Origin: Acetobacter tropicalis
Lineage (GTDB): Bacteria > Pseudomonadota > Alphaproteobacteria > Acetobacterales > Acetobacteraceae
Direction: 5' to 3'
Assembly (NCBI RefSeq): GCF_001580915.1
Contig: NZ_LHZQ01000205.1
Location: 1 to 53,061, forward strand
DNA length: 53,061 nucleotides
A model generated the notes under the pieces. It worked only from the letters and a program-made list of their open reading frames with translations. It ran no database searches and was not told the origin of the DNA. Below are positions 338-22,115 of this stretch, piece after piece (within the stretch, counting starts at the first letter, position 1; each line of letters opens with the position of its first letter). The translations under genes and the position numbers were made by a program.

Positions 338-1042
338 TTATTCAGGCTGAGCGGGGAGAGTAAATGTATTAGTGGGAATGCTGATGCCAGTATGCACATC
401 AAACAGTGTCACACGTGTCTCCCGTCCTTGCGAATCCAACACACTCCATGAGCGCAGTGACACAGGTTTGTCATGGAACACCAATGTCAGGCTGCCATCG
501 CCCGGAGAGGATGTTCTTACCAATGAGACCTGCACCAGCCCGCCTTCATGAGCGAAGCCGGTAATGGTCACATCGTCAGAGAGGCTGACATGCTGACGCA
601 ACAGCAAGCCTAACGGAGTACGCTCCATGGGAATAACCGTGGTCTGATCCAACTGGTTATCACGGAACACTACCTTTCCGTCGTTCGCCACCAGCAAAAG
701 CGGGGTGGGTGGATCATACGCCAAACGCATCTGGCCAGGCCGCTTCATCCACACCACACCCGTTGTACGTTTGCCGTCGGCATCCAGTTGCTGCATCCGC
801 GCCTGAAAGGTGGTGGCGCTGTTCAACGCCTGCTCAATCTTTACCAACCATGCCCGATCAGAGTCGGAAAGCGGCGCAGACTCTGGGGCGGCAGCCTCCT
901 GCTGCGGCACGGACATCCGCGCGCCAGCTTCTTGGGCTGACGCCACAGAAACACTGCCTCCGGCAATAACCGGCAGCAGGAGCACCGCACCAGCCACCAA
1001 CTCATGCCGAAATGAGGAAAAGGCGCGTGAAACCATGGTCAT
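338..1042 (-). CDS. lolA: LolA-family outer-membrane lipoprotein carrier protein
   Basis: Periplasmic chaperone that carries lipoproteins released by LolCDE to the outer membrane. The 234-residue product has a hydrophobic N-terminal signal segment (about residues 14-30) ending in an A-S-A/QE-type cleavage site near residue 36. The mature part has the LolA half-barrel pattern: an early 'ATTFQARMQQ' strand, 'GVVWMKRPGQMRLAYDPP', and the family C-terminal 'LRSWSVLDSQGRETRVTLFD' stretch. Length fits the family (about 200-240). The start is the first of two close ATGs, with AGGA about 12 bases upstream. It lies downstream of ubiA on the same strand, but about 340 bases separate them, so it may have its own promoter. 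Family assignment is strong; the symbol is by analogy. Confidence 0.85.
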   Translation of the reverse strand: MTMVSRAFSSFRHELVAGAVLLLPVIAGGSVSVASAQEAGARMSVPQQEAAAPESAPLSDSDRAWLVKIEQALNSATTFQARMQQLDADGKRTTGVVWMKRPGQMRLAYDPPTPLLLVANDGKVVFRDNQLDQTTVIPMERTPLGLLLRQHVSLSDDVTITGFAHEGGLVQVSLVRTSSPGDGSLTLVFHDKPVSLRSWSVLDSQGRETRVTLFDVHTGISIPTNTFTLPAQPE

Positions 1043-1385
1043 ATGTTCTGATATTCCTACTGGGACCTATTGAGGACGGAGCCCGCTATCAGACCGTCCT
1101 CTCACGCCATTATTATGGCACTCTCCCGCCAACTGTAACAGGGACGATGGCGGCACTCTCGGGAATCCCTTCCTGCGGCATGACATTCTTGGGCCATACG
1201 CTAATCGTACCTCCTCCCTCCCCGGTCTAACGCGCCATGCAGACAATGTCGGATGTATGGGAAGGGAAAATTCTCAGAAAGACTAAGGTAAAGCCATTAC
1301 GCGAACATCAAAGCAAGCGCGCCGCATAACACGGCTGCTTTCGTGCCCTTTAAACCCACCACAGGACCTTCTTCCCACGTATTCC
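1043..1385. other. Intergenic region between ubiA and lolA with an inverted repeat
   Basis: A 343-base gap on the minus-strand path from ubiA to lolA. No gene is supported. It contains a perfect 8-bp inverted repeat, GAGGACGG at 1072-1079 and CCGTCCTC at 1094-1101, with a 14-base spacer, 30 bases upstream of the lolA start. No U tract follows on either strand. It could be a leader hairpin or an operator. Confidence 0.4.
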
Positions 1386-18362: not shown

Positions 18363-18416
18363 TGCGGGAGCCTGAACACCTCATCTCTGCACCGTTATAA
18401 TTAAAGGATGTGCCCC

Positions 18417-19445
18417 ATGCCCTCAGCCACACAGTCCCCTCCCACAGGACGGCCCGAGGGCAACACGACCATCCGGTCCGGACACATTACTGAACATACG
18501 TTCCGCGCCATCAGCGCATGGCCTGTTCTGGCAACGTGTCTGGCATTGGGTATTGCCGGAGCGTGGCTGTTCTATCTTGTGGGCCAGCACATTGTGCCCT
18601 CACCCGGCCTCCCCATTATCGGCATTGCCTGCTTTCTACTGGCTTTTTTCCTACTCAAGGGCCTGATCATTCTTCAACCGAATGAAGCTGCAGTCTGCCT
18701 GTTGTTTGGCCGCTACAAGGGCACGCTCACGCAGGCCGGTTTCTGTTGGCTTAATCCACTTTATACACGCCAGAAACTCTCGCTGCGGCTCAAGACCCAG
18801 GAAACCGGCCCCCTGAAAGTGAATGATGCCGTAGGGAATCCGGTAGAGATTGGTGCTGTTATCATCTGGCGTGTATCAGAAGCAGCGCGCGCTACGCTGG
18901 AAGTGGATAATTACGGCCTTTACGTCTCCGCCCAGAGCGAAACAGCCCTCCGCCTGCTTGCCAGCCGCCACCCCTATGACCCCACCGAACAACAGGATGC
19001 GCTACCGACGAGGGACACTGGCACTGGCACTGGCACTGGCACTGGCACTGGCACTGGCACTGGCACACCGGCTTTTACTGAAGCGCTTTCATCAATAACC
19101 CTGCGTGATGGAAGCGATGTTCTGGCCAGTATTCTCCTGCAGGAATTGCAACTCCGCATGGCAGCCGTTGGGATAGATGTTGTGGAGGCGCGCATTTCTC
19201 ACTTGGCCTATGCACCGGAAATTGCAGGCGCAATGCTGCGCAAACAGGCCGCCAACGCCGTTATAGCCGCTCGCCGCGTCATCACCCAGGGTGCTGTCTC
19301 CATTATTGACGATGCACTGGCAGACCTTGAAGCCCGCATGGATCATCAACTCGCCCCCCAACAACGCGCCGCCATGATCTCCAACCTCCTGATTGTCCTG
19401 ATAGGAGACCGCGAAGCTACCCCTGTTGTGAATACAGGTTTGTAA
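18417..19445 (+). CDS. SPFH/band 7 membrane protein with a Thr-Gly repeat
   Basis: A 342-residue protein of the stomatin/prohibitin/flotillin superfamily. Two N-terminal hydrophobic segments (about residues 33-55 and 63-83) precede a band 7 domain that starts at LQPNEAAVCLLFGRYKGTL and includes NPLYTRQKLSLRL. The C-terminal helix (EIAGAMLRKQAANAVIAARR) resembles the oligomerisation region. Such proteins form membrane scaffolds, and the role here is unknown. A perfect 8-fold hexanucleotide repeat inserts eight Thr-Gly pairs in the middle of the domain, between the SRHPYDP segment and TEALSSITLRDG. ATG 18417 is chosen because AAGGA lies 8 bases upstream. No NfeD partner gene is adjacent. Confidence 0.82.
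   Translation: MPSATQSPPTGRPEGNTTIRSGHITEHTFRAISAWPVLATCLALGIAGAWLFYLVGQHIVPSPGLPIIGIACFLLAFFLLKGLIILQPNEAAVCLLFGRYKGTLTQAGFCWLNPLYTRQKLSLRLKTQETGPLKVNDAVGNPVEIGAVIIWRVSEAARATLEVDNYGLYVSAQSETALRLLASRHPYDPTEQQDALPTRDTGTGTGTGTGTGTGTGTPAFTEALSSITLRDGSDVLASILLQELQLRMAAVGIDVVEARISHLAYAPEIAGAMLRKQAANAVIAARRVITQGAVSIIDDALADLEARMDHQLAPQQRAAMISNLLIVLIGDREATPVVNTGL
19017..19064 (+). repeat. Hexanucleotide tandem repeat (ACTGGC)8 inside the SPFH gene
   Basis: Eight perfect copies of ACTGGC, flanked by partial copies. Each unit encodes Thr-Gly. Because the unit is a multiple of three, changes in copy number would alter protein length but keep the reading frame. Confidence 0.95.
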
Positions 19446-19513
19446 AAGGATTTTTTTGATGATGTTATTTTATTACAAACAATTTTTACTAATTAAAATC
19501 TAGAATACGAGAC

Positions 19514-19583
19514 TGCAGGATGCAGGATGCAGGATGCAGGATGCAGGATGCAGGATGCAGGATGCAGGATGCAGGATGCAGGA
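19514..19583 (+). repeat. Heptanucleotide tandem repeat (TGCAGGA)10
   Basis: Ten perfect head-to-tail copies of TGCAGGA in the spacer between the convergent SPFH and acyltransferase genes, 68 bases after the SPFH stop and 39 bases past the acyltransferase stop. No open frame or hairpin explains it. Perfect identity of all copies suggests recent expansion by replication slippage. Confidence 0.97.
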
Positions 19584-19622
19584 ACGCTTTAAGAAATATC
19601 CCCCGCTCACCACAATGAGAAA

Positions 19623-20701
19623 TTATGCATTTTTATTCACTATTTTTGTAAAAATACGTGATGCGCATTTTGATGAGGGTGTTTCTACAAATCTATATGA
19701 AAGATAACTTAAAAATGACACAACTGGCATCAAAACACATATAAAAAACAATGTAATATTAATCGCAGGATTTCCAATAAAACTTGAAAACATTTTTATA
19801 ACCACATAATGCCAAATATACATGGAAAATGATATTTTTCCCAAAAAAGAAAATATTACATTACCAAAAAGCACATTAGAAACTTTCGAGTTAGCAGCTG
19901 AAACAATAAGAAATGGCACCATGAAATATAAATATGGCTGCTTTACATATAAATCTTTGTATTCCATTGGCATGCAATCATAACCCGTTATTTTACCACC
20001 AAAATATGGAGAAAAAGGTAAAATAAGAAATAAAGCAACAAGAAAAATTAAGTTTTTCTTACCTCCTCTTTCATTTCTATTTTCATCAAAAAAGATATAA
20101 GAGAAAGACCCAAACAGAAAATATTGGAATGTAAATCCTATCCTGGTAAAATTAAAAGGCCAATATGTATAAAAATTAGTTGATCTAACAAATAAAAAAA
20201 GAAATAAACACACCATTAGAAATTTCATATTCCCAAATTTTTTAAAATACCACAAAATAGGGAATATTAAATAAAATACTATTTCAGGACCAATACTCCA
20301 AAAAACAACATCCCCCTTTATCAAAATAAAATTTAATAAAACTTCTTTAATAGATACTAATTCATTAAAGGCCAAAAAAAACTACTATCCACACCTAATG
20401 CGATGAATATTTTCTGATAAATATATAAAATTAGCAAAGAGATATAAAATAAGGGAATGACCCGTGAAAATCTTTTTACAAAAAATATTTTGATGTTTTT
20501 AACATTGAATTCCAAATTTCTTGTTACATGCATCATAAGAAAACCAGACAGCGCAAAAAATATTATAACCCCTAATGCGCCCGTCTGCTGCCCATACCGC
20601 CCTTTCACGCCTGCCTGTATCATATAATGAGCCATTATAACCAACAGGCATGCAATCCCACGTATACCATCAAGAGCTTTTAAATGATATTTGGCTAACA
20701 T
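19623..20701 (-). pseudogene. Acyltransferase family 3 gene, split by a frameshift in a poly(T) tract
   Basis: Two overlapping frames together make one O-acyltransferase of about 360 residues. The first (20701 to 20357, 114 residues) has LDGIRGIACLLVIMAHY, GVIIFFALSGFLMMH and FSRVIPLFYI. The second (about 20375 to 19623) continues with FWSIGPEIVFYLIFPILW and further membrane segments to the usual C-terminus. The frames meet in a run of eight T on the coding strand (complement of 20374-20381); one extra T would restore a single frame. Such enzymes O-acetylate surface sugars. The gene is far more AT-rich than its neighbours, pointing to horizontal origin. It may be phase variable, a decaying gene or a sequencing error. 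Confidence 0.8.
20374..20381 (-). repeat. Homopolymer T8 (coding strand) at the acyltransferase frameshift
   Basis: Eight consecutive A on the plus strand, read as T8 in the acyltransferase gene, exactly where the two reading frames cross. A tract of nine would join the frames through ...DSSFF-LAFNE...; as it stands, translation stops 15 bases later at TAG. Confidence 0.9.
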
Positions 20702-20901
20702 ATAAAAAATAATTCCTTGTCTTTATATTTACTTATCAAGCAGATCATATTCTTAAATCCGTTTTCCTACTAGATTCTATTATAAACCCATCATCATTAT
20801 CCTTTATAAAGTGAAATTTATTGCATTTTCAAAGTATTTATATAATTTATATTCCAATTACTTTCCATTCGATATTTCGATAAACTAAGATCATATTTTA
20901 C

Positions 20902-22086
20902 TCACCCCCGTCGTTCCGCCATTAGGGTCAGCACAGCCTCGGCAGCAGCATCCGCAGGCAATTTTCCTCCTGGCCCCTGCAAACCATTCAGAACCGTTTT
21001 GAAAGCCTCTTTCTGACTGTTTGCCATGTCAGGGTTTTCAAAAAGGGCCTTTACCGCGTTAGCCAGAACGGAAGGCGTGCATTGCTCCTGCAAAAGCTCC
21101 GGCACCACTGCTCGCCCGGCCAGTAGATTGACCATGGCCACATACGGCACCCGGATAAGCCGCCGCGCCATAAAGGCCGTAATGGGATTGACCCTATACG
21201 TGACCGCCATCGGCACGCCTGCCAACGCCAGTTCAAGGGTGGATGTGCCTGATTTGGTCAACGCAGCCCCTGCTGCCGCAAACGCATCATGCTTGTCTTG
21301 AACATCCGTCACAATTACCGGCCTTACAGGCCAGTTTGCCGTTTCACGCTCAACGGTGGCAGCCACCACGGGAGAGACAGGAATAACCGGCACCAGATCG
21401 GGCATATCCTTACGGAGCAGAGCCAGCATCTTGCCAAAAGCCGGCAACAGCCGCGGGGCTTCAGACCGTCGGCTGCCCGGCATCAACACCAGCACGCGCG
21501 CCGTGGGCTCCAGCTTGTGCCGTTGGTGAAAGCGGGCACCATCTCCATCCTGCGCGCCAGACTGAAGAACGGGGTGCCCCACAAAACGGGTCAACAGTCC
21601 ATGCCGACTGAAAAACGCTTCTTCAAAGGGAAGCAGGCACAGCAGTTCATCCCACAGGCCAGGGAACTCTTTGACGCGTTTTTGCCGCCATGCCCAAACC
21701 TGCGGAGCCACGTAATGAACCCGCAAAATCCCTTTATCGGTAATACGCCTAAGCAACCGCAACGCAAAACCGGGGCTATCAATGGTGATTACCAGATCAG
21801 GCTTTCGGGCAGCAATATCATCTACAGCCTCGTTCAGCCGAGCGGAAAGTGCGCGAAGCCGGGGCAGTATTTCCACCAGCCCCATGACAGCCAGATCACG
21901 CATGGGAAACAGGCTACGCAGCCCCTGCTCCTCCATCCGCACCCCGCCCACACCCACAAACCGCACAGCGGGATTACGTGTGCGCAGAGCCTGCATCAGG
22001 CGTGCGCCCAATACATCACCACTGGCCTCGCCTGCCAGAATCCAGATCAGGGGAGAAGAAGATTGGTCTGCCATACCTTCAGCCAT
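20902..22086 (-). CDS. lpxB: Lipid-A-disaccharide synthase
   Basis: Transfers 2,3-diacylglucosamine-1-phosphate from UDP to lipid X in lipid A synthesis, at the inner face of the membrane (GT19). Visible family blocks are ILAGEASGDVLGARL near the N-terminus, YVAPQVWAWRQKR, the donor-binding 'LVLMPGSRRSEAPRLLP' and 'ALTKSGTSTLELALAGVPM', and a late VPELLQEQCTP. Length is about 394 residues from the ATG at 22086. Other in-frame ATGs lie at 22110 and 22074 and none has a strong ribosome binding site, so the start is uncertain. The remaining lpx genes are not nearby. It sits immediately downstream of the fused ABC gene and may be cotranscribed. Confidence 0.93.
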   Translation of the reverse strand: MAEGMADQSSSPLIWILAGEASGDVLGARLMQALRTRNPAVRFVGVGGVRMEEQGLRSLFPMRDLAVMGLVEILPRLRALSARLNEAVDDIAARKPDLVITIDSPGFALRLLRRITDKGILRVHYVAPQVWAWRQKRVKEFPGLWDELLCLLPFEEAFFSRHGLLTRFVGHPVLQSGAQDGDGARFHQRHKLEPTARVLVLMPGSRRSEAPRLLPAFGKMLALLRKDMPDLVPVIPVSPVVAATVERETANWPVRPVIVTDVQDKHDAFAAAGAALTKSGTSTLELALAGVPMAVTYRVNPITAFMARRLIRVPYVAMVNLLAGRAVVPELLQEQCTPSVLANAVKALFENPDMANSQKEAFKTVLNGLQGPGGKLPADAAAEAVLTLMAERRG

Positions 22087-22115
22087 AAAGTGCTGTCCGG
22101 CATGGCACAATGGGG

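Follow-up and report, generated by a model that had tools for sequence, protein, structure and literature searches.

The phase-variable acyltransferase gene oafA of Haemophilus influenzae encodes a LOS O-acetyltransferase, and its frame is set by the copy number of GCAA repeats, a tetranucleotide array that varies between isolates (PMC6479036). In Vibrio cholerae, short tracts are described as contingency sites in sugar genes, namely the poly-A runs of wbeL (A8) and manA (A9), in which a single-base frameshift is at work; reversion is reported there for manA, not for wbeL, and the tract was the same in all 37 of 37 strains for wbeL and in all but two of 37 for manA (PMC3441752). Among acetic acid bacteria, Komagataeibacter loses cellulose through a 1-bp insertion in bcsCI or a 17-bp deletion in bcsBI and regains it through indels of 1–2 bp (PMC7347698), rough and smooth colonies of A. 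pasteurianus interconvert (PMC5553594), and hyper-mutable tandem repeats of A. pasteurianus were, according to PMC4686929, reported by Azuma et al. Since the Komagataeibacter cases are published, revertible frameshifts in surface-polysaccharide genes are not new to this group, and the earlier note, which knew of no such system in acetic acid bacteria, had put this too strongly. In the literature, we found no homopolymer-driven phase-variable acyltransferase described for acetic acid bacteria. Deeraksa et al. (2005), as cited in PMC5553594, PMC5050591 and PMC7889782, reportedly described a spontaneous mutation in polE.

The locus considered here lies in a window of 53,061 nt (the whole stretch of DNA that was analysed) and consists of two minus-strand frames, which were read as the consecutive parts of one acyltransferase-3 protein in the earlier note. 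This reading was borne out by profile matching, in that the ORF of 114 aa (20357..20701, −) matches positions 2–111 of Pfam Acyl_transf_3 (PF01757; 8e-14) and the ORF of 250 aa (19623..20375, −) matches positions 115–323 of 326 (2e-19), the two overlapping by 19 bases in the ORF list. The frames meet, as had also been noted, in a run of eight T's (T8; A8 on the plus strand) at 20374–20381 (−), which is the longest homopolymer within the gene and is read AGT TTT TTT TGG in the 114 aa frame. That frame reaches a stop codon 14 bases past the run, and the 250 aa frame is displaced by exactly −1. Downstream of T8 the 250 aa frame contains a single stop, its proper terminal codon, whereas none of 2000 base-shuffles of this stretch was free of stops (mean 19.7), and thus the remark that no other defect is visible also holds. 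Because consecutive profile positions are matched and only the terminal stop follows T8, the two frames are one acyltransferase-3 gene, broken at T8; its frame depends on a simple repeat, as does that of a contingency locus. Addition of one T was predicted to yield a gene of normal length, and it does yield a predicted 359 codons; nevertheless, the closest relatives have 358 residues, which would fit a tract with two bases fewer than T8, not one base more.

Intact relatives were found for the whole protein. The nearest, P0001, is a metagenomic protein of 358 aa with 84% identity to the C-terminal part and 90% to the N-terminal part, followed by P0002 (358 aa, 80% to the C-terminal part, labelled at its source as an acyltransferase of an Acetobacter sp. 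MAG) and P0004 (357 aa, 54%); a fourth, P0003, is 100% identical, has 199 aa, covers the C-terminal part only and ends short of the tract. In a profile search that scored 7996 candidates, 73 proteins were obtained at E ≤1e-10, and all those other than these four were at most 39% identical. At the tract site P0001, P0002 and P0004 read DSRFLAF, NDSFLAF and NEKLLAF, respectively, compared with DSSFF and then the shift in the window. Judged by protein sequence and the genetic code, not by their DNA, these three encode at most T6 there, so that the long tract is not common to the relatives.

A conserved Arg and His near the N terminus are defining residues of the acyltransferase-3 family, and in 31 relatives H25 is invariant and R14 occurs in at least 90%. 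R77 and R80 are likewise invariant before the break, and W134, E139, Y143, H297 and E339 (P0001 numbering) after it. With Arg14/His25 and consecutive profile matches over the PF01757 domain, the two parts belong among the OafA/YrhL-type membrane O-acyltransferases, from whose characterised members the window gene differs in being remote from any of them and in its broken frame. No NCBIfam family scored above its cut-off; matches to SucT, at 24.9–26.5 bits against a cut-off of 1275, were disregarded, and P0002 had no sequence match in the PDB.

The P0001 model, predicted from a 31-row alignment (pLDDT 89, pTM 0.89), is a helical, multi-helix membrane fold, in which helices 8–29, 36–59 and 67–101 precede the break. 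The break itself, at about residues 107–109, falls in a segment with short helical turns only, after which the remaining helices follow. Among the 50 PDB matches shown, those above 0.9 probability were two HGSNAT chains and two chains named ‘membrane proteins’ (probability 0.92–0.97, TM 0.47–0.50), with E-values of only 0.19–0.40. HGSNAT is a membrane acetyltransferase. Because conserved residues stand on both sides of the break, the 114-residue product should not work, and as modelled this fragment, with three of about ten predicted membrane helices, should be inactive. The gene would then be OFF, or nearly so, in the sequenced isolate.

To judge the age of the break, columns that are invariant in P0001, P0002 and P0004 were compared with the window, which differed at none of 64 before the break. 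After it, 6 of 120 differed, and these include the TTG that was translated as a start Met. Changes specific to the window versus those specific to P0001 numbered 1 versus 5 before the break and 17 versus 14 after it (18 versus 14 with the start Met), and the distribution of lineage-specific changes before and after the break gave a Fisher p of 0.18. The further disabling changes of an old pseudogene were not seen, there being no extra stop and few changes at invariant columns, and by these comparisons the gene looks recently functional. Taken with the split domain, the open downstream frame, the intact relatives and a T8 of expected length (see below), this little decay leads us to favour, at a probability of roughly 0.55, a recent and ordinary slippage frameshift in an otherwise sound acyltransferase gene. 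On this reading, horizontal transfer would have placed an AT-rich membrane acyltransferase gene between lpxB and a band-7 gene, and strand slippage would recently have altered the length of the T run, throwing the downstream two thirds out of frame, such that the sequenced isolate would make only the 114-residue fragment, with the gene OFF or nearly so. A further slip could restore the frame, and the T8 allele is probably revertible, a property that would be a by-product of Phe- and T-rich coding and not an evolved switch. The available data give no sign that this is an evolved switch and not simply a recent mutation of the ordinary sort, though the gene could in principle flip back. Against this preferred reading stand the A8/A9 tracts of V. 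cholerae wbeL and manA, which show that a run of such length can be a selected switch (PMC3441752).

To see whether T8 is unusual, the relatives were re-encoded under the codon usage of the acyltransferase gene itself, in 5000 draws each. An A/T run of at least eight arose somewhere in the gene in 75% (P0001), 78% (P0002) and 99.7% (P0004) of the re-encodings; codon usage thus predicts such runs, and T8, being no longer than composition gives, needs no selection to explain it. In addition, homopolymers were tallied in 453,061 bases of the same genome, comprising the window and 20 stretches of 20 kb, in which runs of at least eight proved common, with 18 found, of which 12 fall within predicted ORFs of 100 aa or more, that of the acyltransferase gene included. 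These results bear on the proposal that T8 is an ON/OFF contingency tract, kept to switch the acylation of surface glycans, for example in phage escape. The break does coincide exactly with the gene's longest homopolymer, with no other stop, the genome holds many long tandem arrays, and precedents exist for a phase-variable acyltransferase in H. influenzae oafA with its GCAA repeats (PMC6479036) and for A8/A9 tracts as sufficient in O-antigen genes of V. cholerae (PMC3441752). The likeness to oafA lies in an O-acetyltransferase gene with a repeat-dependent frame, but in place of an array with varying copy number the acyltransferase gene has one T8 run, of which one allele is known (PMC6479036). 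The likeness to wbeL and manA lies in an A8/A9 homopolymer and a single-base frameshift in a surface-sugar gene, but the V. cholerae tracts are kept across strains as described there, whereas T8 is not conserved in the relatives of the acyltransferase gene (PMC3441752). With a tract expected from codon usage and relatives at T6 or less, the ON/OFF claim of the earlier note was not supported, which leaves its interpretation upheld only in part, and we consider a true contingency gene unlikely. Komagataeibacter bcsBI and bcsCI share with the window the host group, a surface-polysaccharide gene and small revertible indels, but their hot spots are C-rich or mixed, with phenotype and reversion observed, and the acyltransferase gene has a T run (PMC7347698). 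A homopolymer-controlled acyltransferase would be new for acetic acid bacteria only if the gene switches at all. Should tract length differ among cells of one clone, this would be a defined acylation gene under slippage control in acetic acid bacteria, and it might matter for the properties of pellicles, for how vinegar starters resist phages and for colonisation of the insect gut. Should it not, the lesson is that phase variation cannot be read from a frame break in a homopolymer alone when the gene is AT-rich and Phe-rich.

The same tally served as a rough control, one that favours unbroken genes by construction, for a sequencing or assembly error, by which the real tract would be in frame and the acyltransferase gene intact. 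The assembly is a draft of 222 contigs, some of which begin inside tandem arrays and so indicate that repeats were hard to assemble, and the relatives are intact. Nevertheless, all 11 remaining ORFs with a run of at least eight continue past the tract. In nine of them the run begins no earlier than residue 44; in the other two it lies at residues 4 and 9, and translation could start beyond it. Pfam domains were found in nine of the ten that were scanned. Six runs fall in no predicted ORF; each of these follows a stop or is intergenic, and none is the meeting point of a split pair of ORFs of at least 150 aa. Moreover, the genome has four further PF01757 genes, all of them open. The tally argues against a widespread difficulty of the assembly with homopolymers and is compatible with an error at T8 itself, an explanation that we regard as quite unlikely.

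Alternatively, the two frames might be joined in expression, either by slippage of RNA polymerase on T8 or by −1 ribosomal frameshifting on U_UUU_UUU, and the gene would then be leaky. A slippery heptamer is indeed present, as T_TTT_TTT lies in phase in the 114 aa frame with the 250 aa frame at exactly −1. Bacterial RNA polymerase is documented to slip on stretches of nine A or T, by which genes that look like pseudogenes can be rescued, and in human apoB eight consecutive A give about a tenth of full-length product; selection against such stretches, conversely, becomes evident at a length of nine bases in a large share of genomes (PMC1088944). A stimulatory structure and a conserved shift, which would be expected of programmed −1 frameshifting, were not found: the 63 bases of RNA downstream fold no better than shuffles (z −0.75, with 38 of 200 as good), and the relatives read through the site with no frameshift. 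Since the fold is ordinary and the relatives need no shift, we count recoding as a minor possibility; T8 might also let the polymerase slip, and joined expression as a whole seems to us very unlikely.

As to its setting, the acyltransferase gene has a GC content of 28.6% and the 200 bp upstream of it (20702..20901), an AT-rich leader between lpxB and the gene, one of 22.5%, compared with 50–63% in most of the window, so that the strongly AT-rich surroundings described in the earlier note are real. By eye, AAGGA stands 12 bases before the ATG. Promoter-like sites in 19400–21000 did not exceed those of shuffles (8 versus 8.7), and terminator-like sites in the same interval numbered 0 versus 1.0. 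The upstream neighbour is lpxB (20902..22110, −; PF02684, 3e-99), which is conserved in the genus with relatives in named Acetobacter species, and the convergent downstream neighbour is a band-7/SPFH gene (18408..19445, +; PF01145, 3e-18). A position next to glycan and lipid A genes had been proposed, of which the lipid A part is right, lpxB being adjacent; for the glycan part there are two glycosyltransferase-like ORFs, named by eye, on the opposite strand and 4.4–6.4 kb away. A Wzy_C search of the same genome gave one match, on another contig.

No DNA similar to 19457–20901 of the window was found at E 1e-3 in the 27 loci compared, some of them short and A. senegalensis included. The latter is closest by LpxB (90%) and has about 0.78 kb of unrelated DNA at the site; the genome nearest by DNA (G034, 84% in lpxB) lacks the acyltransferase gene there, and its sequence downstream of lpxB is, by eye, the same as that of A. 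senegalensis. The C-terminal part matched, at E 1e-5, three of 49 genus genomes, namely its own and two with weak matches of 30% and 37%, and P0002 matched, at E 1e-20, three of 397 sampled family genomes, again its own and two at 31%. No near sibling of the 114-aa part was found, the best match being 65% over 70% of the part, and no genome of the same species was recognisable among the 49. The gap between lpxB and the band-7 gene measures about 0.78 kb in A. senegalensis, about 1.2 kb in A. indonesiensis and about 2.9 kb in A. cibinongensis. The gap DNA of none of these three is like that of the window. In the remaining 25 of the 28 loci, some of them short, nothing matching band-7 turned up next to lpxB. 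Because the gap varies in length between species and none of its versions resembles the window's DNA, it may be an insertion hot spot. The acyltransferase gene is, on these sequence comparisons, best explained as a horizontally acquired AT-rich insertion beside a conserved lpxB. An operon with lipid A synthesis was rejected as a functional clue, in view of the conserved lpxB and the unlike gap DNA in relatives.

A phage or plasmid source was likewise rejected, no close mobile relative having been found. P0001 matched six of 50,697 phage records, each with identity below 60% and coverage short of 80%, and 93 of 72,556 plasmid records, all below 60% and 27 of them covering at least 80%, with identities of 25.5–26.0% in the eight rows listed. 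Among viral contigs scanned with the alignment A2, none of 600 candidate stretches was confirmed.

Two perfect tandem arrays lie close by, both on the plus strand. The heptamer array (TGCAGGA)10 (19514..19583) stands where the acyltransferase and band-7 genes converge, between their 3′ ends; no other place in the assembly had three or more copies of TGCAGGA, and no DNA like this array lies at the A. senegalensis locus. The hexamer array (CACTGG)8.5 (19016..19066) lies in frame inside the band-7 gene, where it encodes Thr-Gly repeats. About seven copies of CACTGG occur at the same place in A. senegalensis, and four or more copies occur at six places of the window's genome (contigs C2, C15, C22, C34, C142 and C147). 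Both arrays are better candidates for hypervariability than T8. They may be of the sort of the hyper-mutable repeats of A. pasteurianus, which are of the same genus and variable in length; those loci are, in the account given, tandem repeats and not a homopolymer (PMC4686929).

Elsewhere in the genome, contigs C2, C11, C17, C35 and C175 begin inside perfect arrays. These are five of 24 contig starts inspected (the window's among the 24, and some of the 24 read as N), and their hexamer, heptamer or octamer arrays span 37–39 bases. Since these starts lie inside long tandem arrays, the arrays probably broke the assembly there. The long tandem arrays of the genome are the more telling sign of hypermutability and a better place to look for contingency loci. 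A T8 run also stands within the first seven codons or so of mutL (contig C175, L073:14259-14277; MutL_C 2e-39) and was present in three of 30 genus loci inspected, those of this genome, G034 and G014; a slip in this run would shift the mutL reading frame. A wider scheme can be drawn up from such elements, in which a slippage-controlled acylation switch, selected by phage or stress, would sit on the acquired insertion amid varying arrays as part of a genome-wide contingency strategy, with the two adjacent arrays also varying, many hexamer to octamer arrays taking part and the mutL T8 near codons 4–7 included. Taken jointly we hold this scheme to be highly improbable; if true, it would place a genome-wide contingency strategy outside the pathogens in which such strategies are best known. 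On contig C35, an octamer array (TGGCTCTA)6 (L005:381-428) was observed at the 3′ end of an ORF (418..1284, −) beside another PF01757 gene, and because the stop of this ORF is at the array edge, the copy number should not alter the protein.
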